From Candidatus Binatia bacterium (GTDB taxonomy: Bacteria > Desulfobacterota > Binatia > HRBIN30), in the NCBI GenBank assembly GCA_026415395.1, contig JAOAHD010000017.1, forward strand, positions 1 through 64,000: DNA of 64,000 nucleotides, read 5' to 3'. Below the pieces are notes generated by a model. It searched no databases. It had not been told where the DNA came from and was given only the letters and a program-made list of their open reading frames with translations. Every line of letters begins with the position of its first letter. Position 1 is the first letter of the stretch. Below are positions 1,507-52,013 of the stretch, one piece after another. Made by a program: the position numbers and the translations under genes.

Positions 1507-1527
1507 GCCGCGCCTAGCCTGTGCAGT

Positions 1528-2223: not shown

Positions 2224-2243
2224 CGTTCACCGCTGAACTTGGG

Positions 2244-2273
2244 GGGCAGGGGCGCTCGTGGCGGCCCCTGCCC
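2244..2273 (-). terminator. Hairpin downstream of the thiolase gene
   Basis: A perfect 10-bp stem (GGGCAGGGGC with GCCCCTGCCC) encloses a 10-base loop immediately after the thiolase stop at 2282. There is no clear uridine run on the minus strand after it. It may therefore act as a weak terminator or as an mRNA 3' stabiliser. Confidence 0.4.
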
Positions 2274-2281
2274 TACTCGCT

Positions 2282-3469: not shown

Positions 3470-3582
3470 GTCTCGCTCCTTTACCCTGGGAAAACTCCAG
3501 CCTACTTTCTCCACCCCCCTCATGGAATTCAAGCGCAGTCAGCGCTTCTGTTCCGGTTATGGGGGCGTTAGCCTTGGCCGGG

Positions 3583-37734: not shown

Positions 37735-38350
37735 ATTCTGGGAAGAAATTTTCGGCCGTCGGGCAGCGGTGGAAATCGAGATTGGTCCTGGGACGGGATC
37801 CTTTCTCTGCCACGTCGCGGAGCAGCATCCAGAGGTCAACTTTCTCGCCATCGAAAGTTCACGCAGCCGAGCGGAGAGGCTAACTCGCTTGCTGGAAGAG
37901 CGCGGCTTGCGGAATGCCCGTGTGGTTCATGCCGCCGCGCAGTGCGTGATCCAGCACTGCGTACCTCCTGGGAGTGTCCAGGCTTACCACATTTATTTTC
38001 CCGATCCGTGGTGGAAACGCCGGCACCACAAGCGGCGCTTGTTCACCCCGGACTTCGCTCGAGCGCTGGCTCGCAGTTTATCACCCGGGGGGCAGGTCTA
38101 CCTTGCGACCGACGTCCTTTTCGTCTGGACCTTGGCACGCAATTGCTTGGAGCAGCACGGCGGACTGGTCTTAACCTACCTCCGCCCGCCAGCCCGCCCG
38201 GTGCGTACGGCGTTCGAACAAAAGGGCCTGCGACGCGGCGCGCAGATTTGGGAGGGCGTTTTTGCACTTCTGCCGCAGTTGTCCGAGCAAGCCGCCACTA
38301 GCCAGGAGGTGGTTAGGATCGGGAATAGACCCAGCGAAAGTCATCCTTAA
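37721..38350 (+). CDS. trmB: tRNA (guanine-N7)-methyltransferase
   Basis: This 209-residue SAM enzyme methylates G46 of tRNA. EIEIGPGTGSFLCHVAEQ near residue 20 is the SAM site, followed by NFLAIESSRSRAERL. The catalytic signature YFPDPWWKRRHHKRRL lies near 90, followed by LFTPDFARAL and GGQVYLATDVLF. It overlaps the preceding pteridine-reductase-like gene by 14 bases and the convergent flippase gene by 38 bases at its 3' end. Confidence 0.93.
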   Translation: MTGIEFWEEIFGRRAAVEIEIGPGTGSFLCHVAEQHPEVNFLAIESSRSRAERLTRLLEERGLRNARVVHAAAQCVIQHCVPPGSVQAYHIYFPDPWWKRRHHKRRLFTPDFARALARSLSPGGQVYLATDVLFVWTLARNCLEQHGGLVLTYLRPPARPVRTAFEQKGLRRGAQIWEGVFALLPQLSEQAATSQEVVRIGNRPSESHP

Positions 38351-39719
38351 CGATTCCGCCGAGCCAAAAGAGCATAGCTCCATACAGGCCGAGCGAAGAC
38401 AGCGCGACGGCTGGGCCTCCCCAGCCGAGCAGGAACACACCGACGGCGCCCGCCAAAGCACCTGCCGCCACCGCGGGAGCACTCGAGCGCAGGCAGTCAA
38501 CGACGATATTGCGCGTAGCCGAGAACGCAAACCACAGGGCGAAACCCACTAGGCTGCTGATGAACGTTGCGGCTGCTGCGCCGACTCCTCCGTACGGCGG
38601 AATCCAGAGCAGGTTGAGAACAATATTGACCGCGACGGACACAGCACTCACCACCAACAACAACCGATACCAGCCGTGGATCAGAAACACGTTCACATAC
38701 ACGCTCCCAAGGAAGGCCAGGACCATGTTCCAACTCAGCAGCACGGCGGCTGGCCAAGCCGCCTCGTATGTTTCGCCAAAAATCAGCCGTAACGCCTCCG
38801 GCGCAATCAAGCTAATGGCCAGAGCCAAGGAGACCCCCGCCGCGGCGAGATAACGGAATCCAGTTAAATAACGGTGACGGAACACCCGTGGGTTCGAGCG
38901 GTGGCTTGCAGCCAGCAGCGGAAACAGCGAGAGCATCATGGCCTCCGAGAACATGCCAAGCGCTTCCGTCAGGCGGACAGCGGCCGCATATTCTCCGACG
39001 TCCTGGGCTCCGCGCAGGTGAAAAAGAAAGATTTGGTCGATGCGGAGCGCCGTCATGAACAGCAAGGCCAAGAGCCCGACCTGACTTGCTTCCCGCAAGA
39101 GGAGTCGCGCGTGCTCGACCACAAGTACCGGCGAGATGCGAACATACGAGCGGACTGCCAGGAGAAAGATCAGTGCAAACAGCAATGCGTTGGCGAGACC
39201 AACGATAAACACAGCAGTCACCGAGGGCTTCCAGCGCCAGCAGCAGAGGACCAGGATGAGAAAGCTCACGCTGCCGAGCACGCTGATGGCGTAGTAGGTC
39301 CGAACCTGGAGGCGACTCTGAAAGTAAGCGCGCGCTAACAAATCAAAGCCGAACGGCAACGCTGCTGCCGCGAGGCTGAGGCAGACAAATGTCGTGCGGT
39401 CCCAGCGGAAGGCCCACCCCAAAACGAACGAGACACTGGCGGCAACCAACCCGAGGCCAAGGCGCAGCCAAAGAGCTGTCCCCAGCAAGACAGGCGCGTC
39501 GTGCGGTCGTGCAGCAAGCTCTCGGGTGAGCACACGCTCCATGCCGAGGTCGGACAGAAATCCGAGAAAGAACATAACCGCGCCCACAAATGCGTAAATG
39601 CCAAACTGCTCCGCGCCCAGCATGCGCGCCAGAACGATCATCGTCGCCAAGTGCGCAATCTTCTGGAGCGTCATTCCGCTCAGGCCGCTGAAGGAGTTGC
39701 GCAAAAGTTGCCGGCTCAT
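38313..39719 (-). CDS. Oligosaccharide/polysaccharide flippase (Wzx-like)
   Basis: This MATE/MVF-superfamily membrane protein of 468 residues has about 12-14 helices. It begins with RNSFSGLSGMTLQKIAHL and LARMLGAEQFGIYAFVGAV, the usual N-terminal flippase pattern. The final helices end near GGIVKDDFRWVYSRS. It would flip a lipid-linked glycan across the inner membrane, matching the long glycosyltransferase operon that precedes it. The ATG at 39719 has GAGAG upstream, over a longer frame to 39764. Its 3' end overlaps trmB by 38 bases. Confidence 0.85.
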   Translation of the reverse strand: MSRQLLRNSFSGLSGMTLQKIAHLATMIVLARMLGAEQFGIYAFVGAVMFFLGFLSDLGMERVLTRELAARPHDAPVLLGTALWLRLGLGLVAASVSFVLGWAFRWDRTTFVCLSLAAAALPFGFDLLARAYFQSRLQVRTYYAISVLGSVSFLILVLCCWRWKPSVTAVFIVGLANALLFALIFLLAVRSYVRISPVLVVEHARLLLREASQVGLLALLFMTALRIDQIFLFHLRGAQDVGEYAAAVRLTEALGMFSEAMMLSLFPLLAASHRSNPRVFRHRYLTGFRYLAAAGVSLALAISLIAPEALRLIFGETYEAAWPAAVLLSWNMVLAFLGSVYVNVFLIHGWYRLLLVVSAVSVAVNIVLNLLWIPPYGGVGAAAATFISSLVGFALWFAFSATRNIVVDCLRSSAPAVAAGALAGAVGVFLLGWGGPAVALSSLGLYGAMLFWLGGIVKDDFRWVYSRS

Positions 39720-39826
39720 GTTCTTCTCTCGGTGCCCCGCATCCGTCTCGCGGCTTCTAACCACGAGACTCGCGGCACACGTGGCACACCCTCAGCAACC
39801 GATTGCAAGCCCGGGGCATCACCAGA

Positions 39827-40750
39827 TCACTGCAATCCCAGCTCCCGCAGCGGCAAGCGGCCGGTCAATCCGTCAACAAAGCCGCGAACGAGCCACAAAT
39901 AGGACTTGATCCGGTCGCCACGGAACAGTCCGGCCACCATCCACCAGCTCACGCCGAGAAAAAAGAGGGTCACGAACTTACACAACTGTGCTGGGCTCGC
40001 GTGCTTGCGCGCAAACAGAATGCTGTTGCGTCCGAGAAAATACAAAACGGGGAACGGGCGCGGGCGGTCCGGATGGGCGGCACCAAAGCCCCGGTGGTAA
40101 ATCACAGCCCGGCCGTTGTAGACGACCCGGAACCCCGCCTTTCGCGCGCGGGCGCACCAGTCGACGTCTTCATGATAGCCGAAGAAATTCTCGTCGAAGC
40201 CGCCAACGGCCTCGATGGCCTTCCGAGTCATCATCATCCCATTGCCGATGACCCAGTCTACGTCTTTCACCACGGAGAGCTCCGGGGCATCGGGCACCCG
40301 CGAGCCGACTAAGTGTACAAGATCTCGGTGGTAGCGAAGCTCCCCGTATGCTCCCCACACGAGGCGATGGTCTTCGAGCAAGATGTTCTTAGCGCCGACC
40401 ACGCCAATCCGCTCATCGCTCTTTGCCACCTCGACCAGCTCCGTAAGCAAGTCGGGGTGCAGTTCTGTATCATTGTTCAGCAAGAGCACGTAGTCAGCAC
40501 CTCGGTTCAAAGCGTCGGCGATCCCGCGATTATTGCCTCCGCAAAAGCCGAGGTTCTTCTCCATAACCAACACTCTTTGCGCCGGGAACCGTCGCTGGAT
40601 GGCTTCGACGCTGCCATCGATGGAAGCGTTGTCCACCACTGTGGCGCTCCAGTTGGGGTAGCGAATTCGCGGCAACGAGGAGAGGCAACGCAACACGTCC
40701 TCTTTGCCGTTCCAATTCAAAATGACCAGCGCAACGTGAGGGTCAGCCAT
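39827..40750 (-). CDS. GT2 family glycosyltransferase
   Basis: This 307-residue rhamnosyltransferase-like GT-A enzyme has ALVILNWNGKEDVLRCL near residue 6, VVDNASIDGSVEAIQ near 35 and NLGFCGGNNRG. The DxD-like LLLNNDTELHPD lies near 90 and FFGYHEDVDWCARARKAG near 200 (the acceptor and base region). The C-terminal basic and hydrophobic tail suggests membrane association. It overlaps the upstream glycosyltransferase by 8 bases. It transfers a sugar to a lipid-linked glycan; donor and linkage are unknown. Confidence 0.88.
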   Translation of the reverse strand: MADPHVALVILNWNGKEDVLRCLSSLPRIRYPNWSATVVDNASIDGSVEAIQRRFPAQRVLVMEKNLGFCGGNNRGIADALNRGADYVLLLNNDTELHPDLLTELVEVAKSDERIGVVGAKNILLEDHRLVWGAYGELRYHRDLVHLVGSRVPDAPELSVVKDVDWVIGNGMMMTRKAIEAVGGFDENFFGYHEDVDWCARARKAGFRVVYNGRAVIYHRGFGAAHPDRPRPFPVLYFLGRNSILFARKHASPAQLCKFVTLFFLGVSWWMVAGLFRGDRIKSYLWLVRGFVDGLTGRLPLRELGLQ

Positions 40751-41702
40751 GGTCCTTTGCCTCGGAGCCAACCGAGTGCCACGCGGCGCGGCTAGCCAAC
40801 CCGAGTTCCTCGACCGGAACGGATCGCTCCAGCAACCCATCCCACACGCCGCGCAGTCGCAGGCGGAAGCCAGCCAGCTCCTTACGCCGCCAACGCAGCG
40901 CCCCGTCCTTCATCAGGTTGACCACCAAGTGCACGGCGTATTTTGCTTGCAGGCTTCGACTTGCGTGTTTGCGCACGAACAAGATCGCGTTGCGAGCGGA
41001 GAGATAAGTAATTGGGCTTAGGTACCCGCCTCCGTCGGTCGACGCGTGCATTCGGTGCCGGACGACTGCCTGCGGTACGTAGGCTACGCGATACCCAGCC
41101 CGACGTGCGCGCACGCACCACTCCAAGTCCTCATGGTACGCGAAAAACCTGTCATCGAAGAGCCCCACCTGGCGCAGCACCTCGGCGCGGATCAACATTG
41201 CGCAGCCGCTCACGTAATCGACAACGGCGAACTCGTTAAATTTCGACACGTCTGGCTCCATCCAACCACGCTGCTGAACCAGTGGGCCATGATAAGTCAG
41301 CACGCCATAGGCGGTGTGGATCCGCGGTGGGGTCTCTTGAGTCAGCGTCTTCGCACCGACCGCCGCCAGTGTTTCGTCCATGGCCAACACCGTGGTGAGT
41401 TGGAGCAAGCAATCAGCTTCCACAACTGCGTCGTTGTTCACGAGGAACACACCATCGGCTCCCAACCGAAGTGCGTGCTCCATTCCGGCATTGGCCCCAG
41501 CCGCAAAACCCCGGTTTTCCGGCAAAAGTAGCCAATGCAGCTCACAGCCAACGTTTGCCAACGTTGGGCGAGGATCCTGGGTAGATCCGTTGTCCACGAT
41601 GACAATATCGTCCGGAACGCGCGTCCCGCGTTCGAGGCTTTCGACGCAGAGACGCGTGAGCGCTGCGTGGTTCCAGTTCACGATCACCGCGGCAACACGC
41701 AT
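40743..41702 (-). CDS. GT2 family glycosyltransferase
   Basis: This 319-residue GT2 enzyme is related to its two GT2 neighbours. VAAVIVNWNHAALTRLCVESL starts the protein, VDNGSTQDPRPTL and NRGFAAGANAGMEHAL follow, the DxD-like VNNDAVVEAD lies near residue 98 and FFAYHEDLEWCVRARRAG near 190. The ATG at 41702 is chosen over a TTG two codons earlier. It lies 9 bases after the methyltransferase stop. It is part of the same operon and of the same subfamily, suggesting duplication. Confidence 0.87.
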   Translation of the reverse strand: MRVAAVIVNWNHAALTRLCVESLERGTRVPDDIVIVDNGSTQDPRPTLANVGCELHWLLLPENRGFAAGANAGMEHALRLGADGVFLVNNDAVVEADCLLQLTTVLAMDETLAAVGAKTLTQETPPRIHTAYGVLTYHGPLVQQRGWMEPDVSKFNEFAVVDYVSGCAMLIRAEVLRQVGLFDDRFFAYHEDLEWCVRARRAGYRVAYVPQAVVRHRMHASTDGGGYLSPITYLSARNAILFVRKHASRSLQAKYAVHLVVNLMKDGALRWRRKELAGFRLRLRGVWDGLLERSVPVEELGLASRAAWHSVGSEAKDHG

Positions 41703-41711
41703 GCCCAAAAC

Positions 41712-42527
41712 CTAGTGTTGGGGCCGCCGGGCCACAGCCAAAACTCCTCCCGCCACCAACCAGGGCGAAAGCGCGAACGCGATGCGTTGCAATAACCGAC
41801 CACGCCGATTCAATTCCCACCGTTTGTGCCCAGGCTTCATGTCGAACATTCCAGCGCGGTACCCAAAGAAGGAAGACGAATCCACCCAAAGTCCTTTGCC
41901 GAGCGGCAAGTGGAAGTCGTCTGCATACAAGCCCTCGACGCGAAAACCGGCCTCCAACAAAAACTTGCGCAACTCGGCACCCGTGAAACGGTACTCAGCA
42001 AACTCCAGTTTGAGGCCACGGCGACGCTTCTGCCAGTCGCGCAAACGCCGCAAGTGATTAATCACGCAGCGCCGCCAGGGATTGTTGTACGGTACCGATA
42101 CCAAGGCCACTCCCCCTGGCTTGAGCACGCGATACAACTCGCGCAGCGCGGTAAGCGGGCCCGCCTCGTCGTGCTCGATCACCCCCAACGAAATGATGCC
42201 GCCAAGACTGCAATCCCGCAGCGGCAAATGCAGCGTGTCCGATGCAAACACCCACCCGCGGGCTCCGTTCTTCGCAGCAGCGGCCAGGGCGGGACGAGCG
42301 AGATCAGTACCAAGAACCTTAAAGCCCCGCTGCCGCAAATAAATCACCCAACGCGCCAAGCCACAGCCGGCATCCAGGATCCAACCATCGCGCGGCAACT
42401 CCCGCAAAAAGACCGGCAGGGTGGTTTCGAAATCGCAGAGCTCCACGTGATCGGCGACCGTATCGAAACTCCAAAAGATCTGGCTCGCCTCAATGCCCGT
42501 GTTGACGGTATAGTACTTGAAGCTCAC
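41712..42527 (-). CDS. Class I SAM-dependent methyltransferase
   Basis: This 271-residue enzyme has a SAM-binding LDAGCGLARWVIYLRQRGF near residue 52, VLGTDLARPAL, LHLPLRDCSLGGIISLGVIEH near 105 and LYRVLKPGGVALVSVPYNN. This is the SAM-methyltransferase_11/25 layout. It probably methylates a sugar or lipid carrier in the glycan pathway. The GTG start overlaps the stop of the upstream glycosyltransferase (GTGA). No Zn or radical motif is present. Confidence 0.85.
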   Translation of the reverse strand: MSFKYYTVNTGIEASQIFWSFDTVADHVELCDFETTLPVFLRELPRDGWILDAGCGLARWVIYLRQRGFKVLGTDLARPALAAAAKNGARGWVFASDTLHLPLRDCSLGGIISLGVIEHDEAGPLTALRELYRVLKPGGVALVSVPYNNPWRRCVINHLRRLRDWQKRRRGLKLEFAEYRFTGAELRKFLLEAGFRVEGLYADDFHLPLGKGLWVDSSSFFGYRAGMFDMKPGHKRWELNRRGRLLQRIAFALSPWLVAGGVLAVARRPQH

Positions 42528-43477
42528 GATTCGTCCCCCTCCTCCCTTAATCCCAGTTCCACAAAGGGGATTGGCCGATCACGCAACGCATCCAGCATGC
42601 CCCGCACCTTGAGGCGTACTCCCTCTTGTTCACCCGTCAGGGCGCGCCGCAAATACTGCAACGGAAGCGTGCCCAACTGAAAGCACGCAAATTTTGCGCG
42701 CTGAAAAACATTCCCGTGCTTTTGCACGAACAAGACCATGTTACGTCCTGCCAGGTATTGGCGAACGCTCACAAAGCGCCGACCGCCGGAGCTTCCATGC
42801 CCTTTGTGCAAAATTCGCCCCTGCGGGGCAAAGACAACCCGGTAGCCTTTGCGGCGCGCGGTTGTGCACCAATCCACGTCTTCGTGGTACGCAAAGTAGG
42901 CATCGTCGAACAAACCCACATCAAGAAGGGCTTCTCGGCGCAACAGCATGGCCGTGCCTGGAACCCAGTCGACGTCGCGCTCTTCCGTGAAGCGAAAGTC
43001 GTCCGGCCAATAATATCCGATGAGCCGTACAAGCCCTTGGCGGTATGTGACGTAACCATAGGCCACCCAAATCCGTGTAGGATCGTCCCACGCCAAAATC
43101 TTCACTCCAACTGCTGCGATCCGTGGATCCCTTTCCGCCGCACGCACCGCCCAGTGGAGAACGTCGGGTTCTACGACGGTGTCGTTATTCAAAACAAAAA
43201 CGTAGTCCGCCCCGGCATCCAGCGCGCAGCGAATGCCCGCGTTGTTTCCCCCCGTGTAGCCCAGGTTTCGTGCCAGGCGGATGCACTTCACGGCCGGAAA
43301 TTGCTCCCGGATTGCGCTCGTGGGATCCACACGCGATCCGTTATCAACGACGATGACCTCGAAGCTCGGGTAGTTGAGTCGTTGCAAGCTCTCCAAGCAC
43401 GCGATGGTGTTCTCGTAACCGTTCCAATTCAGTACGACGATGGCGACCTTCGGCGCCGAGCGATCCTGACTATCCAT
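42524..43477 (-). CDS. GT2 family glycosyltransferase
   Basis: This 317-residue GT2 enzyme is closely similar in layout to those at 39827 and 40743: VAIVVLNWNGYENTIACLESL, VVDNGSRVDP, NLGYTGGNNAGIRCAL, VLNNDTVVEPDVLHWAVR and YFAYHEDVDWCTTARRKGY. It lies between the methyltransferase (GTGA overlap) and the GT4 gene (8-base overlap). Repeated paralogues in one operon suggest stepwise addition of similar sugars such as rhamnose. Confidence 0.88.
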   Translation of the reverse strand: MDSQDRSAPKVAIVVLNWNGYENTIACLESLQRLNYPSFEVIVVDNGSRVDPTSAIREQFPAVKCIRLARNLGYTGGNNAGIRCALDAGADYVFVLNNDTVVEPDVLHWAVRAAERDPRIAAVGVKILAWDDPTRIWVAYGYVTYRQGLVRLIGYYWPDDFRFTEERDVDWVPGTAMLLRREALLDVGLFDDAYFAYHEDVDWCTTARRKGYRVVFAPQGRILHKGHGSSGGRRFVSVRQYLAGRNMVLFVQKHGNVFQRAKFACFQLGTLPLQYLRRALTGEQEGVRLKVRGMLDALRDRPIPFVELGLREEGDES

Positions 43478-44558
43478 GCAGCGCCTCGCGATACACGTTC
43501 AACGTCTGCTCTGCGGTGAGGGACCAAGAGAAGCGCCGCGCGCGCTCCAGGCCTCGCTGACGCAACTCGAGCCGCAGTTCCGGATCGCGACACAGCCGCG
43601 AGAGCGCGTCTACTAGGCTGGGCACGTCGAGCCGAGACAAATAAAACGCAGCCGTACCAAGAACCTCTGGAATCGACGTATGCTCTGGAGCCACTACGGG
43701 GCAGCCGCAAGCCATTGCTTCTAAGAACGACAAACCGAAGCCCTCGTACCCAGACGGGCTGCAAAATGCGAGCGCGTTTCGGTAGAGGGCCGCGAGGCTC
43801 TGGTCCTCCACCTCGCCAACATACATGAGCCCGTGCGGGGGGCGGGCGAGAAACCAGGGCGAGTAACCGGGGCGGCAGCGGCCCGCCAACACGAGATACA
43901 AGCCAGGAACCCCTAAGTGCTGGTAGGCTTGCACGAGCAGTTCCACGTTCTTCCGCGGTTGTAAGGTGCCGGCGTAAAGGATGTACGGCGGCTTCACACC
44001 GTGCCGTTGTAAGATCGCGGCATCGGCGGCGTGCGGTCCGGGCTCGAACACCTCCCGAGCAGCGAGCGGGACTATGGTTACTCTGTCCGAAGGAACGCCC
44101 AGGGTGGTACAAAGGTCATCTCGAGCATGCGCGCTGTCAGTAATAATGCGCCGGGCCATGCGAACCGAGAGCGGAACGAGCACCCGTTGGTGCACTCGCT
44201 GCAGCCACGCAAACGACTTCGGTTGGTGAAACACAGCCAAGTCGTGCACCGTGACCACCTTGGGCAGTCGTAAGTGCAGAGGCAAGGTTCCTTTCGTTCC
44301 GTGGTACAGGTCGATGCGCTTGCTTCGCAACGCCGCAGCAGCCCGCTCCTCCCAGAACCCTTGCTCCCAGGGGTGGCGGAGCGGAATTTCGATCACGTCC
44401 TTGATCGCGCCATTCGCACTTTGCAGTCCTGCGGCGCGGTCGCACACGATGGTAAGTTCATGCTCGCCAGGAGTTCGCGCCAAAGCGTGAATCAGCTCGC
44501 TTGCGTAGCGCGCCGGCCCACCTTGCACGCTTAAGATCGCTCCTATGGCAATACGCAT
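43470..44558 (-). CDS. GT4 family glycosyltransferase
   Basis: This 362-residue GT-B enzyme starts MRIAIGAILSVQGGPARYAS. The acceptor domain contains HGTKGTLPL and VVTVHDLAVFHQPKSF. The donor domain has LYAGTLQPRKNVELLVQAYQ near residue 200, FCSPSGYEGFGLSFLEAMACG near 275 with the EX7E pair, and PVVAPEHTSIPEVLGTAAFY. It uses a nucleotide sugar with retention of configuration. ATG 44558 overlaps the upstream gene by 16 bases; the frame is open for 110 more codons but without GT features. Confidence 0.88.
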   Translation of the reverse strand: MRIAIGAILSVQGGPARYASELIHALARTPGEHELTIVCDRAAGLQSANGAIKDVIEIPLRHPWEQGFWEERAAAALRSKRIDLYHGTKGTLPLHLRLPKVVTVHDLAVFHQPKSFAWLQRVHQRVLVPLSVRMARRIITDSAHARDDLCTTLGVPSDRVTIVPLAAREVFEPGPHAADAAILQRHGVKPPYILYAGTLQPRKNVELLVQAYQHLGVPGLYLVLAGRCRPGYSPWFLARPPHGLMYVGEVEDQSLAALYRNALAFCSPSGYEGFGLSFLEAMACGCPVVAPEHTSIPEVLGTAAFYLSRLDVPSLVDALSRLCRDPELRLELRQRGLERARRFSWSLTAEQTLNVYREALHG

Positions 44559-45484
44559 GGATGGCCATCCAAGGGTGGATTGTGCAGAGCTCCAGCTCGC
44601 CCGGCCACTCCGAGCCGGACTCCCCGCAGCATTGCAGCGACTACTCGCCACTGCCCGCGCGCGGCGTAGAGGATCGTGCTGCTCACAAGCAGACAGGATA
44701 CCAAGGGAATCGCGATGACCCATTGCCACCATGGCACATGAGCGCGCACCAGCAGGAGAAGGTTGCGCGACTTCAGTGCGGCGCTCGTCGGGGTCAGGCC
44801 CCGCCCAAAACCGCGCCAGCCCTCGTGCTCTACCTCCGCGCGCGGGACCACGGCGATCTGGTAGCCGTGCTGTCGCGCTCTTAAGCACAGGTCAACTTCT
44901 TCATAGTAGGCGAAGAGATCCTCGCGGAAACCGCCCAGGCGTTCCCAACAGCTAACCGCGAGCAGCAAGCAACAACCGACGACTCCTTCCACGAGCCGGT
45001 AAGGCTCGCGCGTCGCGCGATACCGAATGAGAGCACGCGGCAGCGCCAAGAGTGACGCTCTCACGCGCTCCCCGACAGAGAGTACGCGCCGCGAGCTGCG
45101 GTCGATCACGACCGGTCCGACGATTCCCACATTAGGAATTTCCTCGGCCACCTCCAACAGAGTGCGGCACGTGTTGGGTTTGAGGATGGTATCCTGGGTG
45201 AGCAACAGCACCCACCGACAGCCACGAGCAAGGGCCCGCTCAATCCCTTGATTCGCTGCGGCGGCAAAGCCGCGATTCGTTTCGTTCCACACAAACTCCA
45301 CCCTGGGATCTGACCCAGCGCAGGTCAGCAGCGCTTGTCGGTCTCCGGCGCCGGAATTGTTGTCGACAACGATGACGAAGGGGTCGACTTGCTCTTGTCG
45401 GAGCGCAGACTGGAGGCTCCCCGCGGCAATTGGCCCACCGTTCCAAGTCACCAAGCAAACGGCGATCGATTGCTTTGCGCTCAT
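44543..45484 (-). CDS. GT2 family glycosyltransferase
   Basis: This 313-residue GT2 enzyme has IAVCLVTWNGGPIAAGSLQSAL at its start, VVDNNSGAGDRQALL, NRGFAAAANQGIERAL and LLLTQDTILKP near residue 100. In the last motif TQD replaces the usual NND, an atypical donor-site motif. LFAYYEEVDLCLRARQHGYQ near 195 replaces YHEDVDW. A C-terminal membrane helix (WVIAIPLVSCLLVSSTILYA) follows. Its ATG overlaps the upstream GT4 stop (ATGA). Confidence 0.86.
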   Translation of the reverse strand: MSAKQSIAVCLVTWNGGPIAAGSLQSALRQEQVDPFVIVVDNNSGAGDRQALLTCAGSDPRVEFVWNETNRGFAAAANQGIERALARGCRWVLLLTQDTILKPNTCRTLLEVAEEIPNVGIVGPVVIDRSSRRVLSVGERVRASLLALPRALIRYRATREPYRLVEGVVGCCLLLAVSCWERLGGFREDLFAYYEEVDLCLRARQHGYQIAVVPRAEVEHEGWRGFGRGLTPTSAALKSRNLLLLVRAHVPWWQWVIAIPLVSCLLVSSTILYAARGQWRVVAAMLRGVRLGVAGRAGALHNPPLDGHPCVLP

Positions 45485-46632
45485 TCAAGAGAGGCAACAA
45501 ATGTCGAAGCGAAGCGCTCCGCTTGTTTTGGAGCGGCAAACTGCTCCTGCATCCAGCGTGCGGCATTGGTTGCTATGCCAGTGAGCTTCTCGCGGTCACG
45601 ACGAAGGTCTAGGAGAGCGTTTGCTAATGCCTCCGGGTTATCGGGCGGCACGAGTATGATTGTCTCGTTGTGTTCGAAGACTTCCCGTACGGCCGGTGTA
45701 TCCGCTGTCACTACCGTCCGGCCAACCGCGCTGCACTGATACACTTTGTTCGGAATCACCATCGCCGCCTTCTCGTTAGCGGCAAAAATTCCCAGACACA
45801 CGTCATGGTCCGCAATCAGCTTCGGTATCTGCGCGTAATCGATCCAACCTCTCCGGGTCACATTTCCTGAGGGCAGCTCGGCAAGCTGCCGGGCGACCTC
45901 CGCGTCCAACCAGCCGCGACCGCAAAATGTGAAGCGGATGCCTGTCTCCCGGGCTAACAACCTTGCCGCAGAAATCATCACGCCAACTCCGTGTAGCGGC
46001 AACAACGACCCGTAGAACAAGACCCGGAGGGTCGCGTCACTTTTCCGCGGCGGGCTGGGTCGAAAAGTTTCCGTATCATAACCGAGGTGGAACACTCGCA
46101 CTTTCTGATCGCTGACGCCAAAGGTGCGCCGGAGATAGTCGGAATGGGTGTGCGTGTCGATGATGACGCGATCGGCCAAGTTCAAGCTTCGGCGGTCGAG
46201 CCAGCCCGCCAGTCGTACCGCTGACGGTGAGCTCGCGGACAACCCCCGATCGAGAACGGTTTCCGATACGGTGACCAGCGGCGCAAACACGAGCTTACGC
46301 TGGCGAGTCTGCCTCAACAGCGAGGCCAACAAGACGTCGAGTTGGCCACGGAATCCCGCCACGAGAATCTCGGCCGGACACCGCGCGAGCTGCCCCCATA
46401 GGCGCGCGGCGCTGGCGACGTAGCGAGCGGCGAACCACAGTAGATGGCGCGGGCGGGTGAAAGCGGGCGAGGTGAGCGGCGACTCTAAAAACGGCTGGTG
46501 GCAGCGTACGATACGGAAACCAGCATCGACAGCCGCTTTTTCTAGAATCCGGCTGACGGTGTATGAAGAAGGGTAGGTTCCGTAGAAGCACAGATTCGGC
46601 TTCGTTGCCCGGCAAGAGCCACTCTGACTCAA
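45481..46632 (-). CDS. GT4 family glycosyltransferase with TTG start
   Basis: This GT-B enzyme of about 383 residues has LCFYGTYPSSYTVSRILEKA near the N-terminus, YDTETFRPSPPRKSD and VLFYGSLLPLHGVGVMI near residue 225. FCGRGWLDAEVARQL and GIFAANEKAAMVIPNKVYQCSA near 305 follow. The TTG at 46632 is the only start that overlaps the upstream stop (TTGA) and has a G-rich ribosome site in front. It transfers a sugar onto the lipid-linked glycan; donor unknown. Confidence 0.82.
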   Translation of the reverse strand: MSQSGSCRATKPNLCFYGTYPSSYTVSRILEKAAVDAGFRIVRCHQPFLESPLTSPAFTRPRHLLWFAARYVASAARLWGQLARCPAEILVAGFRGQLDVLLASLLRQTRQRKLVFAPLVTVSETVLDRGLSASSPSAVRLAGWLDRRSLNLADRVIIDTHTHSDYLRRTFGVSDQKVRVFHLGYDTETFRPSPPRKSDATLRVLFYGSLLPLHGVGVMISAARLLARETGIRFTFCGRGWLDAEVARQLAELPSGNVTRRGWIDYAQIPKLIADHDVCLGIFAANEKAAMVIPNKVYQCSAVGRTVVTADTPAVREVFEHNETIILVPPDNPEALANALLDLRRDREKLTGIATNAARWMQEQFAAPKQAERFASTFVASLE

Positions 46633-47645
46633 GTCCGCCCCCCTTGTCGGCGGGCCGTGTCCACATGGGGCAATCCGACCTTCTCGACAGGTGGCAACTG
46701 CTCGCGCAACTCTAGGCAACGCAAGCGGAACAACACGTCCTCGATGAGATTCCGATTTCCAGCGATTAAGTCTGCCACTAGGCCAATTAAAAGAGTCTGG
46801 AAGCCGATGATGATCAACAGTACCGTCAACAACAGGGACTGGATGTGGCCACCGCCCGAGCCGGTCCAGTAGAAGTACAAAAACCGGATCCCTGGGATCA
46901 TCCCAGCGAAGATGAGGAGCCCGCCCAGATACGCAAACACCTTCAACGGCTCGTAGAGCGCATAAATCCGCACAATTGTGGCCGCGGACCTCTTCACGTA
47001 CTGCCAGAGAGAGTTGAAGAGCTTGGATTCCCGTGTTGGGTAACTCCGCACCGGCACGTGTGTTACCGGCAGGCGTTTCTTCCCTGCCTGGATGATGGTT
47101 TCGATCGTGTACGTGAAGTCCGAGATCACATTGAGTCGGAGGGCAGCTTCCCGACTAAAGGCTCGGAACCCACTGGTTGTGTCAGGGATCGCGGTTCCTG
47201 AGAGGGTGCGCACCACCCAACTTCCGTACCGTTGCAAAAGTCGCTTGCTCCGCGAGAAGTGGCGCACCGACGCCGGGTCGCGATCACCAACTACCATGTC
47301 CGCTTGCCCTTCCAGAATCGGGCGAATCAGGGCAGGAATGTCAGCGCCGTCGTACTGGTGGTCGCCATCGGTGTTAACGATGATATCAGCCCCGAGGCGT
47401 AAACAGGCATCCAAGCCGGCGCGGAACGCACGTGCCAAGCCGCGGTTATTGGGGAAGCGCAAAATGTAGTCTGCACCCTCTTGACGGGCGACCTCTGCCG
47501 TGCGGTCGCGCGAGCCGTCGTCGATGACCAGAACTTCCACCTCGTCGACTCCGGGTATAGAACGGGGCAAGGAACGCAGTGTGGCGGCGAGGTGTTGTTC
47601 TTCGTCGAGGCAAGGAATCTGAATAATCAGCTTGCGCGGTTTCAT
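46629..47645 (-). CDS. DPM1/ArnC-like glycosyltransferase with membrane helices
   Basis: This 338-residue GT2 enzyme has IIQIPCLDEEQHLAATLRSL, VLVIDDGSRDRTAEVA near residue 40 and NTDGDHQYDGADIPALI near 95 (the DxD motif). VGDRDPASVRHFSRSKRLLQR follows. Two C-terminal helices (FAYLGGLLIFAGMIPGIRFL and LLLTVLLIIIGFQTLLIGLV) resemble polyprenyl-phosphate sugar transferases. It may load a sugar onto polyprenyl phosphate for the GT-C proteins nearby. It is the first gene of the ten-kilobase minus-strand glycan operon and lacks a clear Shine-Dalgarno. Confidence 0.88.
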   Translation of the reverse strand: MKPRKLIIQIPCLDEEQHLAATLRSLPRSIPGVDEVEVLVIDDGSRDRTAEVARQEGADYILRFPNNRGLARAFRAGLDACLRLGADIIVNTDGDHQYDGADIPALIRPILEGQADMVVGDRDPASVRHFSRSKRLLQRYGSWVVRTLSGTAIPDTTSGFRAFSREAALRLNVISDFTYTIETIIQAGKKRLPVTHVPVRSYPTRESKLFNSLWQYVKRSAATIVRIYALYEPLKVFAYLGGLLIFAGMIPGIRFLYFYWTGSGGGHIQSLLLTVLLIIIGFQTLLIGLVADLIAGNRNLIEDVLFRLRCLELREQLPPVEKVGLPHVDTARRQGGRT

Positions 47646-47724: not shown

Positions 47725-49740
47725 ATGTTGATCGAGAGCGTCCTAGCGGCGGTTCGCGCAGGCTTGTGGGGCGCCTTGTGTCTCTACATCCCAGGCCGCG
47801 CTTGGTCGGCCTGGCTCTACGGCCACGTTCCGCTTTCCCGCACTGCCGCGTCGCCACTGTTCTTCGAAGTCACCGCCAGTGTCGTAGCAACAACTTGGGT
47901 CGGCTTTTTCCTGCTTGAAGCTGGCGCCTGGTCTCCCATCACCCTCGCCACGACCCTCAGCATGCTCTCGGTGCTCGGCTTTTGGTTATCGCGAGGCCAC
48001 AGCCGCCCGCGGTATTGCCGCGAGGATGCGCAGCTGATCGGGCTTGCAGCAATCTTGTGTTGCTGGCTCTTTCCTCCATTAGAGGCTCGCTTTTCCGCCG
48101 GAGACGCCACAGGGTATATCGCGGCGGGAATCCACGCCGCACGCGCGGGCGGTTTCGCGTTCAGTGACCCAACGATCGGCTTGATCGATATCGATTTAAG
48201 GCGAGCTCTCTTTCCGAGCGTCGCCGCCGATCGCGGCTCCCCTCCTTATCTTCGTTTGGAGGGTGGCTACGTTTTGCGCTCGCTTGATGGCGATGCGCTG
48301 CTGCCTGCATTTCACCATGGCATCGTTCCTTGGGTGGCTCTTGCAGCTTCGGTGTTGGAGATGGACCAGGTCGAATGGATCTTCGTCGTTTTTGGCGTGC
48401 TTGCCTTTGCGGCGATTTTCGCCACCGCTCGCTCGCTCGGAGCACCGCCACTCCTCTCCCTAGGTGCCGCTGCGTTAGCAGCGACCCAACCAGCTTTGTT
48501 TTTTTATGCCCGCTTTCCCATGCCGGAAATGCCCGCTGCATTCTTTCTGTGGGCTGGGGTGGCGATGGCCGGGTACAGTGCTGCAAGCGGACGCCTCACG
48601 GCGCTTGCCAGCCTAACTCTGGGATGTGCCGCCCTGTTACGGTTGGAGAACGCCTTCTTGGTTATTGTGGCTCTCGCCTTTTGCGCCGCCTTCGTTCCGG
48701 GCGTCAGCAACAAGCGAGCCCTACTGCTGCCCGCGTTTCTACTCAGCATTCAGGCACTCCTGCACGCTTACCTCTGGAGAACCCATTACTGGGGTAACCT
48801 CCTCAACCTTCTCCGTACCCACCAAATTGCGATCGCGGGCATTTTGGCCGGATGCGTGGCCATGCTCTTGGCCGCGAGGCGCAGCGACCGCTGGCGCAAC
48901 ACTTCGATGCCGCTTTGCGAAGCTCGCACGGTTTTTGCCGGGCTGGTCGTCCTGGCGCTGGTGAGCACTGGCTTTTTGCAGGCCTGGGTGCGTCACGGCA
49001 CTGAGTGGGATTTGCTACGAGCCGCTTCTGGTGGCTTCCTGGCGCCGTTCGGCCTCTTCAGTTTACTGCTGGCGGCAGTGCGGGCTCCATTACGGGTGCC
49101 GCAGGTTTTATTCGTCATCCTCACCCTTGAAGCTGCGGTGATTTTTTTTCTCGCGCCGAACGCGACCCCAGTCAGCTTCTGGGTTGTACGGAGGGCGGTT
49201 CCGCTCCTGCTGCCTGGGCTTTGTCTCGCGCTAGTCGCCGCGGTCGTTTCCTGCACCTCCCGAATGCAACGCAGCCGCCAGTTGCTGCTCACAGGCGCGA
49301 TTATGGTGACCGCTCTATGGACGCAATACGGAGCGCTGAGTTTGTTGCTCAGGCAGCATTATTTCGCTGGCGGTCGCCTCCACTTTAAAATGTTGGAAGG
49401 GTCGCTGATGCCGCACTCCATCCTCATCATGAGTGGTAGGCTCGCACCATTGAGCTTTGCTCCTCTCCTTTGGGCCACAACGCAAAGCCCGGTTTACTAT
49501 GTCGGCAACCCGCAGAATTGGCTGTTTTCCGACCTCGTACGCACGCTTGCTGCGGCTGGAAGACCAATTTACCTCGTACAGCCGTCGCATCTGCCCGTCC
49601 ATTCACCATCTGGCAAAAGCGGGCACTGGCTGCCGCAGCTTCGCTATGCCTTTTCTACCACGAGCCCTTTCCACCAGGCTCGTCCGGAAGACGGAGCTTG
49701 GCAAGACGTCGATCTCAGCGTCTATCGTTGGTCCCCTTAA
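47725..49740 (+). CDS. Polytopic GT-C-like membrane protein
   Basis: This 671-residue protein has a dozen or so helices. A first periplasmic loop with ARFSAGDATGYIAAGIHAARAG near residue 115 resembles the acidic loop of GT39/ArnT-type transferases that use polyprenyl-phosphate sugars. FYARFPMPEMPAAFFLWAG lies near 260. No DxD cytoplasmic domain is present. It is likely a lipid-linked sugar transferase working outside the inner membrane; the family is an inference. It is divergent from the glycan operon by an 80-base gap. Confidence 0.65.
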   Translation: MLIESVLAAVRAGLWGALCLYIPGRAWSAWLYGHVPLSRTAASPLFFEVTASVVATTWVGFFLLEAGAWSPITLATTLSMLSVLGFWLSRGHSRPRYCREDAQLIGLAAILCCWLFPPLEARFSAGDATGYIAAGIHAARAGGFAFSDPTIGLIDIDLRRALFPSVAADRGSPPYLRLEGGYVLRSLDGDALLPAFHHGIVPWVALAASVLEMDQVEWIFVVFGVLAFAAIFATARSLGAPPLLSLGAAALAATQPALFFYARFPMPEMPAAFFLWAGVAMAGYSAASGRLTALASLTLGCAALLRLENAFLVIVALAFCAAFVPGVSNKRALLLPAFLLSIQALLHAYLWRTHYWGNLLNLLRTHQIAIAGILAGCVAMLLAARRSDRWRNTSMPLCEARTVFAGLVVLALVSTGFLQAWVRHGTEWDLLRAASGGFLAPFGLFSLLLAAVRAPLRVPQVLFVILTLEAAVIFFLAPNATPVSFWVVRRAVPLLLPGLCLALVAAVVSCTSRMQRSRQLLLTGAIMVTALWTQYGALSLLLRQHYFAGGRLHFKMLEGSLMPHSILIMSGRLAPLSFAPLLWATTQSPVYYVGNPQNWLFSDLVRTLAAAGRPIYLVQPSHLPVHSPSGKSGHWLPQLRYAFSTTSPFHQARPEDGAWQDVDLSVYRWSP

Positions 49741-49903
49741 AGGGGTCAAAATCCAGCCCCTAGTATCTTCGACCTTTCCGCTCTGGCCGGATGGAAACCG
49801 GTTCCATCCTGAGGGGCTAAGCAAGAATCCAAGAAAGAAAAAGGGCGCCCAGGTAAAACCTGGGCGCCCAAAAGTAGCGGCATCTTTTTTCGCGACCGCG
49901 GGT
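49741..49903. other. Convergent intergenic region with two hairpins
   Basis: GGATGGAA (49789-49796) and TTCCATCC (49802-49809) form an 8-bp stem-loop. It is flanked by AGCCCC and AGGGGCT, which can extend the structure. It is probably the 3' end of the GT-C-like gene on the plus strand. The terminator for the minus-strand operon follows at 49831-49869. Confidence 0.4.
49831..49869 (-). terminator. Intrinsic terminator of the tandem secreted-protein operon
   Basis: On the minus strand ACCTGGGCGCCC-like arms form a perfect 12-bp stem (GGGCGCCCAGGT/ACCTGGGCGCCC) with a 3-base loop. It is followed directly by TTTTTCTTTCTT. It begins 34 bases after the last paralogue's stop. This is a textbook rho-independent terminator. 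Confidence 0.85.
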
Positions 49904-50545
49904 CTAGTTTAGGATGCCCGGACGCGCGACAACGTTACCATCATCGCAGTTCACCACCTCGGCACTCAAGATTTCCACGTTTTGCCGGGCCAGACCAGGC
50001 GGCTGCGAATTTTGCGTCAAGCACTGATCAAGTAGAATCGTCCCCAAAACCACACCTCGTGGATTGGCAATAAAGCAGTTGCTGGGACCAATCGGGCAGT
50101 CCACAGTCGTATCCTGGAAAGTGACCAACTTATTGCTTCCCGACGGATTCTTCGTCGTTACTCCGGAGCGGGTGGTGCGCAACGTGAGGCGTACTTTCAC
50201 GCGTTGGCCGTTCTGCATGCCGAAGGCCAACAACTTCACTTTCCCCTGCCCGCCCGTTGCAGGGAAACGGCGCACATCAAGCCGACCAAACGTCATCGAT
50301 GCTCCAACCGGGTTCGTGCCGCCAGGCGGTGGCAGCGGATCGGAGTGAGTTGCAAAACATCCCGTGGCAGGCAGGTTCGAAGGAGACACTACTGTCAACC
50401 CGCTTGGCGTACACGAGTCAAACGCACGGGCAAGCCAGGTCGAGTAACGAATGGCCCTCGTCGGAAAACCGCTCACCTGCGCCGACACTGGCCCAGCCGT
50501 CGCCACCGTCACACCGATTAACGTCGTTAGCCAAAGCTTCTTCAT
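49904..50545 (-). CDS. Secreted protein of a tandem paralogous family, member 3
   Basis: This 213-residue protein has a signal peptide (MKKLWLTTLIGVTVATAGPV, cleavage near VSAQ). The mature part shares its block order with the two upstream neighbours: FDSCTPSGLTVVSP, GCFATHSD, VKVRLTLRTTRSGVTTKNPS, VTFQDTTVDCP, LDQCL and a terminal ARPGILN. Four cysteines are common to all three; this one has two additional ones (SNCF, NCDD). An Ala-to-Asn tail replaces VLR at the end. No domain is recognised. GAGGGAGGG precedes the ATG. A terminator lies 34 bases downstream. Confidence 0.7.
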   Translation of the reverse strand: MKKLWLTTLIGVTVATAGPVSAQVSGFPTRAIRYSTWLARAFDSCTPSGLTVVSPSNLPATGCFATHSDPLPPPGGTNPVGASMTFGRLDVRRFPATGGQGKVKLLAFGMQNGQRVKVRLTLRTTRSGVTTKNPSGSNKLVTFQDTTVDCPIGPSNCFIANPRGVVLGTILLDQCLTQNSQPPGLARQNVEILSAEVVNCDDGNVVARPGILN

Positions 50546-50583
50546 TGTTCCCTCCCTCTCGTTCTCGCTTTCACTTCGCCATG

Positions 50584-51249
50584 TTACCGCAGCACGCCTG
50601 CCCGAGCCAGTTCTTTGCCCGTGGCCACATTCACCAAACTCGCATCCAACACTTCAATGTTATTGGTACCCGTTCCTCCGCCCAGGTTCGAATTGGGCGC
50701 AAGGCAAGCGTTCAGGTCCGTCGCGCCAAGGATCGAGCCGTTCGGACGCACAACAAACGCATTCGGTGCGGGGGGGCAATCCACGGTGACGTCAGCAAAA
50801 GTGACCGTGGCACCCGACTTTGTCGGATTCTTCGTGCTCACCCCCTGCCGTGTAACCCGGAGATTGAGCCGCACCCTGACACTCTCACCAAAGGTGAGGC
50901 CCCGGGCATAAAGGCGAATTTTTCCGGACTTCGCCACCCGCAAGCGGGCAAAGTTATAGGGCAACACACTATCGGTCACCGAGTTTGCGGCTAAACAACC
51001 AGTATTCGGGACGTTTGTCGGTGAGACCACCGTGAGACCTGACGGCGTACACGCATCATATGCGCGCACCATCCAGGTGTCATAAGACGGAGCCTTTTTC
51101 GGATAACTTGGCAAGGTTTGCCCGAGGGCAGAAGAACTCAGCCCCGCGACGAAGCTCAACACAGCCAACGACACAAGCACTCGCATGCCGAACCTCGTTT
51201 CAACCGACCGGATCATCATTGCTGCCTCACGTGCCTTCGTCTGCCTCAT
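50584..51249 (-). CDS. Secreted protein of a tandem paralogous family, member 2
   Basis: This protein is up to 221 residues. A signal peptide near residues 22-44 (MRVLVSLAVLSFVAGLSSSA) suggests translation may begin at an internal ATG (51219, with GTGAGG in front) although ATG 51249 overlaps the previous stop (ATGA). Shared blocks are YDACTPSGLTVVSP, GCLAANSV, VRVRLNLRVTRQGVSTKNPT, VTFADVTVDCP, LNACLAPNSNL, NIEVLDASLVNV and the terminal ARAGVLR. Predominantly beta-strand-like alternation is visible. The four conserved cysteines could make two disulfides. Function unknown. Confidence 0.7.
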   Translation of the reverse strand: MRQTKAREAAMMIRSVETRFGMRVLVSLAVLSFVAGLSSSALGQTLPSYPKKAPSYDTWMVRAYDACTPSGLTVVSPTNVPNTGCLAANSVTDSVLPYNFARLRVAKSGKIRLYARGLTFGESVRVRLNLRVTRQGVSTKNPTKSGATVTFADVTVDCPPAPNAFVVRPNGSILGATDLNACLAPNSNLGGGTGTNNIEVLDASLVNVATGKELARAGVLR

Positions 51250-51845
51250 CGGAGCACCCCCGGTCGTGCGAAAACCTTGTTGCCGTTGTCCACGTTAACC
51301 AACGCAACCTCTTCAATCTCGATATTCCCCGTGGCCAAGCCAGGATAAGGAGCCAGACAATCCGCCAAATCAATCGAGGCGCCCAGCGCGCCAGTGGGGT
51401 AAACGATCACGAAACCAAACGGCGGAGGCCCACAGGTGACGACCTGGTCCGCAAAGGTTACGCGCGCGTTAGTCTTCGAGGGATTTTTTGTATTGACTCC
51501 GAGCTTTGTCACTCGCAGCGTCAACTGGACCTTGACGCGCCCGCCTGGAGTCATGCCCCGGCCGAAGACCTTAATTTTGCCGCTTCCCTTCAGAATCCGC
51601 ACCTTGCCAAAGTCCATCTTCATCTGGTCGTCGACAACCGAGGCCGTGGTTAGGCAACCCTGCGCAGGGAGACCAGGACTCACCACTGTGAGGCCACCAG
51701 GCGTGCAGGGGTCAAACGCACGGACCAACCAAGCTGAGAACGACCGAGCTACCAACGGGAACTGAGCTTGCGCCCAGGCACTCCCTCCGCCGAGCAACAA
51801 GCCCACAAAGGCTCCCGCTACGGCCATTCGCCAATGCACTTTCAT
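51246..51845 (-). CDS. Secreted protein of a tandem paralogous family, member 1
   Basis: This 199-residue protein has a signal peptide (VAGAFVGLLLGGGSAWAQA). The mature domain contains FSAWLVRAFDPCTPGGLTVV, GCLTTAS, VKVQLTLRVTKLGVNTKNPS, VTFADQVVTCG, LADCLAPYPGL, NIEIEEVALVNVDNG and the terminal ARPGVLR. GGAGGGAGCGC lies just before the ATG. It is the promoter-proximal gene of the three; its stop overlaps the start of the next (ATGA). The block order is the same throughout, so the trio arose by duplication. No known family is recognised. Confidence 0.7.
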   Translation of the reverse strand: MKVHWRMAVAGAFVGLLLGGGSAWAQAQFPLVARSFSAWLVRAFDPCTPGGLTVVSPGLPAQGCLTTASVVDDQMKMDFGKVRILKGSGKIKVFGRGMTPGGRVKVQLTLRVTKLGVNTKNPSKTNARVTFADQVVTCGPPPFGFVIVYPTGALGASIDLADCLAPYPGLATGNIEIEEVALVNVDNGNKVFARPGVLR

Positions 51846-51907
51846 GCGCTCCCTCCTGTTTAAGGTCCTCTCCCCGAAACGCTAGTTCAACAAGCTACTC
51901 GGGACGC

Positions 51908-51936
51908 ATACTCCAACAGTTGTTACGCTTTGTCAA
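51908..51936 (-). promoter_or_regulatory. Sigma-70-like promoter of the tandem secreted operon
   Basis: On the minus strand a perfect TTGACA (51931-51936) is separated by 17 bases from GAGTAT (51908-51913). It lies about 60 bases upstream of the first paralogue's ATG. The -35 is ideal and the -10 is weak. No other promoter candidate was noted in this short divergent gap. Confidence 0.5.
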
Positions 51937-52013
51937 GAGCAAACCTCTTCGGCACTCGAGGGCCAAAACGCCCAGGGTTGATCCGCCACAGTTCGCGGGG
52001 CAAAGAGCTCGCT

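Follow-up and report, generated by a model that had tools for sequence, protein, structure and literature searches.

The locus described here raises the question of what three adjacent genes for exported proteins of no recognised family are doing next to genes for the synthesis of a surface polysaccharide. It lies in the window, i.e., the whole stretch of 64,000 nucleotides that was analysed (positions 1 to 64,000 of the forward strand of contig JAOAHD010000017.1, assembly GCA_026415395.1), from the 3.69-Mb, 25-contig genome of a Candidatus Binatia bacterium, in which no copy of the family was found beyond the three genes. An earlier note on this DNA had described three minus-strand paralogues of about 200 residues, exported, beta-rich and cysteine-bearing, and this description holds up well: the open reading frames encode 199, 221 and 213 amino acids (aa), the N-termini are signal-peptide-like, and the structural models are eight-stranded. 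The proteins are 43, 46 and 47% identical to each other (BLASTP; E 8e-45, 5e-51 and 5e-54), a likeness that, judged from the alignments, lies far beyond chance. The answer that we favor, with a probability of roughly 40%, is that they belong to a dedicated periplasmic glycosylation module as the acceptors of a GT-C-like membrane glycosyltransferase (hereafter GTC) encoded beside them. The four genes are as follows.

51246..51845, minus strand: gene 1 of the operon (P0003), 199 aa, signal peptide at about residues 1-25 (by eye), then a predicted beta-sandwich mature protein
50584..51249, minus strand: gene 2 (P0002), 221 aa as listed, signal peptide, mature from about residue 44
49904..50545, minus strand: gene 3 (P0001), 213 aa, signal peptide at about residues 1-22, then a predicted beta-sandwich mature protein
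47725..49740, plus strand: GTC, 671-aa polytopic membrane protein, GT-C-like glycosyltransferase, convergent with the operon

Linkage of the family to one GT-C-like transferase gene

In other genera, too, family genes adjoin relatives of the GTC of the window. Among 145 sampled genomes of the class Candidatus Binatia, a profile built from eight GTC proteins found relatives in 44, and a family profile built from 46 sequences found members in 47, at 119 places and with up to 12 places per genome (iteration from the three operon proteins had found relatives in 40; the 119 places include fragments as well as the weak, N-terminal-only matches of G338 and G345). A family gene is located within 3 kb at 31 of the 50 GTC places counted (a 51st, which is another fragment of a G299 gene already included, was omitted), which represent 29 genomes, 20 genera and 10 taxonomic families, with a median gap of 194 bp and 26 places within 400 bp. 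Seventeen pairs are convergent, as in the window, and 14 are co-directional with the family gene upstream, with no other arrangement found; that is, since both kinds of pair exist, the adjacency has outlasted changes of gene order. Because the GTC profile was built from adjacent loci, we also removed the seven genomes that had seeded it, and 23 of the remaining 42 places were paired vs. 0.17 expected by chance (a rough figure that assumes one mean genome size). Co-occurrence of the two genes across genomes pointed in the same direction (Fisher test, p 4.5e-20 without phylogenetic correction, hence a weak test). The neighborhood is not incidental, as the gene linked to the family in 10 taxonomic families is specifically this GT-C-like one, and we consider it very probable that the functional linkage between family and GTC is real. 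Within the searches made, an unnamed family with an invariant Cys-Cys loop that is tied to GTC in 10 families of one class is new. The result delimits an unnamed family in a deep and mostly uncultured class of bacteria, ties it to one membrane transferase, and gives three "hypothetical" genes a place in an enzyme-partner pair that can be tested.

Two further loci bear on how such pairs are arranged. In G378, the GTC match breaks off 4 bp short of the end of one contig and family genes begin at the end of another; this genome, which likely holds a split pair, was not counted. At L232, three tandem genes of the K-type subgroup described below (906-3419, minus strand) lie about 4 kb downstream of a GTC gene, and a partial family gene is found on the upstream side of the same GTC gene, at the contig end.

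Pairwise distances between family proteins correlate with those between GTC proteins (r 0.69, 30 loci). At the 21 loci that also carry the GT2 glycosyltransferase discussed below, r was 0.75 for family and GTC vs. 0.14 for family and GT2, and within the K-type subset (15 loci) the partial r of family and GTC given GT2 was 0.71. These Mantel-type comparisons covered 30 of 31 GTC loci pairwise and 21 three-way, with L136 and L233 falling outside both the K-type and the R-type subset; they are weak tests, and species phylogeny explains part of the correlations.

The sequence of GTC is compatible with the GT-C superfamily, whose members have 8-13 membrane helices and an acidic motif in an outer loop. 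A crude count gave 10 hydropathy peaks for the window protein, D127 and Y131 are both invariant (in 8/8 and in 30/30 proteins), and E268 is conserved in at least 90%, within an RF-MPE block conserved in near relatives. Among 30 GTC proteins compared at E<=0.05, the copy of the window included, PMT_2 matched 8 (best 3.4e-6) and an NCBIfam putative-glycosyltransferase family of the LA3751 type matched 13 (best 5.1e-7); three Pfam and five NCBIfam families were matched in all, and none is an O-antigen-ligase model. Further searches of PDB sequences gave no informative match.

The protein family, its invariant cysteines and its predicted fold

The earlier note had recognised no family for the three proteins, and profile searches bear this out. 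Pfam gave nothing over threshold for them (gene 3 had two matches below it, the others none), NCBIfam and PHROGs gave zero matches, the best Pfam match among 34 relatives had an E of 0.018, and two profiles searched against PDB sequences reached at best E 0.74. We could not trace the family in the literature, where an unnamed family is hardly findable by words; by term search, PMC8262859 contains no occurrence of "secreted", "glycosyl" or "S-layer". In a phylum sample of 395 genomes, eight matched at E<=1e-4, all of them of the Candidatus Binatia class. The only match outside the class (G271, E 4.3e-4; this genome may or may not be contained in the phylum sample) was dropped, given that it has an internal stop and that the family matches include no open frame from its locus, L007. 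Patterns of the three proteins, run against a collection of 84,980 species genomes, returned only two members of the genus, a result that constrains close relatives and has little bearing on distant ones.

The family could be sorted into an R-type (window-like), a K-type and a third, cysteine-rich group. Profile comparison gave 98.2% for R-type vs. the third group, 99.7% for K-type vs. the third group and 95.2% for R-type vs. K-type, over 153-165 columns each, and at most 0.4% for column-shuffled controls (20 per pair). Restricted to the part after the second cysteine, the R-type comparisons fall to 50-53% (E about 1e-4), and the R-type signal is therefore largely N-terminal. By these comparisons, the three groups appear to be one family. 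Two members, at L071 (1447-2562, minus strand) and L140 (5638-6804, minus strand), carry two tandem family domains; both are from G309, a genome in which the family occupies 12 places and GTC gave no match.

The triplication in the window is older than the earlier note had assumed in calling the family recently expanded. The three-gene operon, in the same order, is present in all three sampled genomes of the genus (the nearest records, L010, a Candidatus Binatia metagenome-assembled genome, and L011, Bacterium HR30, appear to be the genomes G361 and G336), and the mature orthologues of each of the three genes are 88-90% identical (signal peptides, 27-49%) vs. 46-51% for the mature paralogues. 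Recent expansion is thus rejected; since orthologues are so much closer than paralogues, the sequences indicate a triplication that predates the genus, with each copy maintained separately. This suggests that the three paralogues may be three non-redundant acceptors or subunits. For comparison, identity across the genus is 69-71% for rnc, 73-74% for mtaB, 86-87% for GT2 and 50-51% for the two membrane glycosyltransferase-like neighbors (a 502-aa one, compared with L010 only, and GTC). In many comparisons, synonymous divergence could not be used, being saturated or undefined, hence no ratio of nonsynonymous to synonymous divergence is given.

The sequence blocks listed in the earlier note do align in the same order in all three proteins, except that gene 1 reads CTPGG and not CTPSG. 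Likewise, the four common cysteines stand within the operon (gene 1, 47/64/138/163; gene 2, 67/85/158/182; gene 3, 45/63/150/175, the gene 3 protein having two more) and not family-wide, where only two are invariant (81/81 non-redundant sequences) and any other cysteine column reaches at most 41%. The invariant pair, which we infer to form a disulfide, bounds a loop of 11-26 residues with a serine plus threonine (S+T) content of 29% vs. 17% in the sequence after the loop, and an asparagine (N) content of 8% vs. 4%. In the window these loops are located as follows.

51654..51707, minus strand: gene 1 loop, Cys47-Cys64, between the family-invariant cysteines
50995..51051, minus strand: gene 2 loop, Cys67-Cys85, between the family-invariant cysteines
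50357..50413, minus strand: gene 3 loop, Cys45-Cys63, between the family-invariant cysteines

The N-termini of the three proteins show a hydrophobic stretch and a small-residue site before Gln (read by eye), and a lipobox was looked for in all three and not found; therefore, the proteins are likely to be exported by Sec, to the periplasm or beyond.

AlphaFold2 models of the mature gene 1 and gene 3 proteins, made from a nine-sequence alignment, have eight strands each (predicted local distance difference test scores of 70.2 and 64.7, predicted template modelling scores of 0.69 and 0.65), with the Cys-Cys loop region at low confidence. Neither model had a Foldseek match in the PDB at E<=0.001 (best E 0.013 and 0.015), and a viral fold library gave none at that threshold. 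With VIA-align, the matches listed (50 per model) were all superoxide dismutase (SOD)-fold entries, best 4bd4_C (Z 7.8, 3.1 Å over 95 residues for gene 1; Z 8.7, 3.1 Å over 99 residues for gene 3). SOD folds thus superpose best on both models, and a SOD-like barrel is moderately supported as the best available fold. The support is no stronger because such Z scores may mean a common strand arrangement and because the top five rows of the Foldseek list for the gene 3 model are not SOD; in addition, a VIA-align list without other folds proves little, since SOD chains are very numerous among the listed Foldseek candidates. The family differs from Cu,Zn SOD and from CHRD, a domain with a SOD-type barrel, in having an invariant N-terminal Cys-Cys loop and no detected sequence relation, and from SOD also in lacking metal-ligand histidines (no His column above 12% in 81 sequences, 0-1 His per mature window protein). 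Neither Cu,Zn SOD (PF00080) nor CHRD (PF07452) matched over cut-off in 34 members, and hhalign of the family against class SOD and CHRD proteins gave at most 4.1% (CHRD, 0.3-2.0%), a weak test in that the CHRD-SOD positive control itself reached only 16% (the loci used, 13 of 20 for CHRD and 19 of 20 for SOD, had three or more mutual matches each). Membership in Cu,Zn SOD enzymes or CHRD proteins by sequence was rejected. Among 98 class genomes, CHRD proteins were present in 31 and Cu,Zn SODs in 44; neither was found in the three sampled genus genomes, the genome of the window (G000) included.

Proposed function and its alternatives

The setting of the pair in the window agrees with the surface-glycan locus named in the earlier note, and includes the following genes.

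46629..47645, minus strand: GT2 glycosyltransferase, hydrophobic segments at its C-terminus, similar to polyprenyl-phosphate-sugar synthases but under their cut-offs
38313..46719, minus strand: polysaccharide genes, i.e., a flippase-type Polysacc_synt, GT2 and GT4 glycosyltransferases and a methyltransferase

The best NCBIfam matches of the GT2 at 46629-47645 are AglJ, PpgS and a dolichyl-phosphate hexose transferase, all under cut-off. Its homologues are present in 22 of 32 fetched neighborhoods, those of the GT4 genes of the locus in 19 and further GT2 homologues in 20 (clusters being single-linkage BLAST groups); some family-GTC pairs, e.g., L131 and L149, have no GT2 in the fetched stretch.

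Under the hypothesis that we favor, this GT2 would, in the cytoplasm, load a sugar onto polyprenyl phosphate, the lipid-linked sugar would reach the outer face of the membrane, GTC (47725-49740) would transfer the sugar in the periplasm, and the exported proteins would serve GTC as dedicated acceptors, with the S/T/N-rich Cys-Cys loop as the most plausible site; the outcome would be a glycosylated periplasmic or surface protein. Acceptor status is favored because of the linkage to one transferase, the closed and S/T/N-rich loop, and the precedent of the O-oligosaccharyltransferases (O-OTases) described below. A fuller version of the hypothesis, i.e., a Binatia protein glycosylation system in which GTC would act on SOD-fold-like exported acceptors that use a disulfide-closed, S/T/N-rich loop as a tag and are multiplied in some genomes (three here), is more tentative. 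Should acceptor status prove correct, GT-C enzymes would have a substrate of a new type, namely a compact domain whose tag is closed by a disulfide, and this would be of use in glycoengineering.

Parts of this scheme have parallels. GTC resembles the GT39/PMT O-mannosyltransferases in its proposed GT-C fold and lipid-linked donor, PMT_2 being the commonest Pfam match of GTC, although these matches are weak and confined to the 8 of 30 members. PMTs act on many proteins, whereas one gene family is linked here. According to the part of PMC12645811 available, protein-specific O-OTases are often encoded close to their substrates (PglS-ComP, TfpO-pilin, TfpM-pilin), and a transferase gene near an exported-protein gene is also what we observe at the 31 paired places, if at only one of 16 in the taxonomic family f101. 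The tag of PglS, as read from the flattened text of Table 1 of the same source, is an S/T-rich stretch between two cysteines, which is the arrangement of the loop in the present family. However, the O-OTases in that text have WaaL-type domains and pilin or pilin-like substrates, as opposed to a GT-C-like (PMT_2) enzyme and a beta sandwich without a Pfam pilin match here. Hence, the pair resembles known dedicated transferase-substrate pairs in kind, by analogy, while its parts are unrelated to theirs. The GT2 plus GT-C-like combination also recalls the CsbB/YfhO and GtlB sets, in which, in the portion of PMC5836110 available, the GT2 is predicted to charge a lipid carrier and the GT-C enzyme is predicted to act outside, csbB and yfhO forming an operon; the acceptors described there are teichoic acids, with no exported partner family, as opposed to the exported partner family found here.

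Several observations weigh against the acceptor hypothesis. When stretches of the same length downstream of the loop are compared with it, 17% of them in the median protein equal or exceed its S/T content, and the S/T fraction of the loop is 0.30 in 19 sequences from genomes without GTC (7 of the 9 family-bearing genomes of this kind) vs. 0.29 in the other 62 sequences. The loop is therefore neither GTC-specific nor extreme, and its S/T enrichment is ordinary for a surface loop. The family is also broader than the pair, since only 40 of its 119 places are near GTC (79 are not) and 9 of the 47 family-bearing genomes have no GTC match; conversely, 6 of the 44 GTC genomes have no family gene. In the R-type subset (6 loci), distances of the family correlate more closely with GT2 (r 0.97) than with GTC (0.87), with a partial r of -0.5, and the GTC of the window itself has no significant Pfam or NCBIfam match. 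Finally, f101 accounts for 15 of all 19 unpaired GTC places, 15 of its 16 being unpaired. Pairing may have been lost in f101, or a different GTC subgroup may be involved. Eight of the 13 f101 genomes nevertheless carry family genes (G307, G314 and G366 are examples of f101 genomes).

It is quite conceivable, if on balance doubtful, that the proteins are unmodified and serve as non-covalent partners, which would bind glycan or assist GTC and thereby position, bind or retain the polysaccharide of the locus. The linkage to GTC fits this alternative equally well, and the basic net charge of the mature window proteins (+8, +9 and +8; +7 to +9 across the genus) and of 17 R-type sequences (mean +5.8) is as expected for the binding of an acidic polymer. 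A related barrel is known to bind glycans: the text of PMC13382577 available describes chordin CHRD domains as SOD barrels without metal ligands that bind glycosaminoglycans, and glycan-binding proteins at the present locus would be a further case of such reuse. Yet the charge is not a family trait (mean -0.6 in the 64 other sequences), and no binding-site signature was identified in the family. We favor acceptors over partners. We consider it unlikely that GTC and GT2 decorate a surface polymer in the manner proposed for CsbB/YfhO-type pairs and teichoic acids, with the proteins being independent envelope or matrix components encoded at the same locus. Two-enzyme GT2 plus GT-C sets proposed for polymer modification do exist (PMC5836110, in the portion available), the locus contains polysaccharide genes, and each of the two genes occurs in some genomes without a match to the other; but the family gene stays beside GTC in two gene orders and 10 taxonomic families, and pairs such as L131 and L149 have no GT2 in the fetched stretch. 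A surface or matrix role of the operon proteins, as the earlier note had proposed, is possible.

That the adjacency is inherited synteny of no functional meaning seems very improbable. Long-lived synteny does exist, since at six loci the pair adjoins one and the same housekeeping block of nifS, mnmA and rnc (five of the six also mtaB); however, the pair is also found in other surroundings and in either relative orientation, at 23 of 42 places vs. 0.17 expected. Least probable of all is that the proteins are divergent Cu,Zn SODs or CHRD proteins. The SOD-fold entries that fill the matches listed by VIA-align for each model are what this alternative has in its favor, against which stand the near absence of histidines, the missing Pfam matches, the low hhalign probabilities and the Foldseek E values above 0.01.

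Operon signals and neighboring genes

The signals flanking the operon are given below, with the details of each after the list.

51908..51936, minus strand: candidate promoter, TTGACA and a weak GAGTAT, 17 nt apart
51852..51857, minus strand: ribosome-binding site of gene 1, AGGAGG, kept in 3/3 genomes of the genus
49843..49869, minus strand: intrinsic terminator at the end of the operon, 12 pairs, 10 of them G-C, then a T run

The promoter of the earlier note is only partly sustained. Its TTGACA is real (51931-51936), and the blocks GTTTG(C/T)TCTTGAC and TGGA(G/A)TA upstream of gene 1 are conserved in 3/3 genus genomes while the surrounding intergenic DNA aligns poorly; in contrast, the consensus scan did not call this promoter, its -10 element GAGTAT being too poor a match. 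The strong terminator that had been noted is present, and the corresponding site in two related genomes shows a hairpin whose sequence differs but whose arms still match, with a less clear T run (by eye). The ATGA overlap of genes 1 and 2 was also found as described, in L010 and L011 as well. Gene 2 has an alternative start, Met12 at 51216, which is preceded by GAGG and retained in the three genus genomes while the residues at the listed N-terminus are variable; a start at Met12 and a start at the ATGA overlap are equally plausible.

The earlier note had named, as grounds for doubt, a lack of homologues combined with codon patterns unlike those of the neighbors. Homologues were found, and the GC content at third codon positions of the operon genes is 0.64-0.67 vs. 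a background mean of 0.668. In codon bias towards ribosomal genes, gene 1 exceeds 36 and genes 2 and 3 each exceed 49 of 52 background open reading frames, which is a weak test; the ribosomal reference in this genome was PF03947, replacing PF00177, which had no match. The absence of a PF00177 (ribosomal protein S7) match from G000 (95.8% complete), with 13 of 14 control genomes positive, is probably due to an assembly gap.

Finally, the 502-aa membrane glycosyltransferase-like gene (51930-53438, plus strand) lies divergently to the operon. It is intact in L010 (50% identical), and L011 (HRbin30) has only broken fragments matching it, at 3181-4410.

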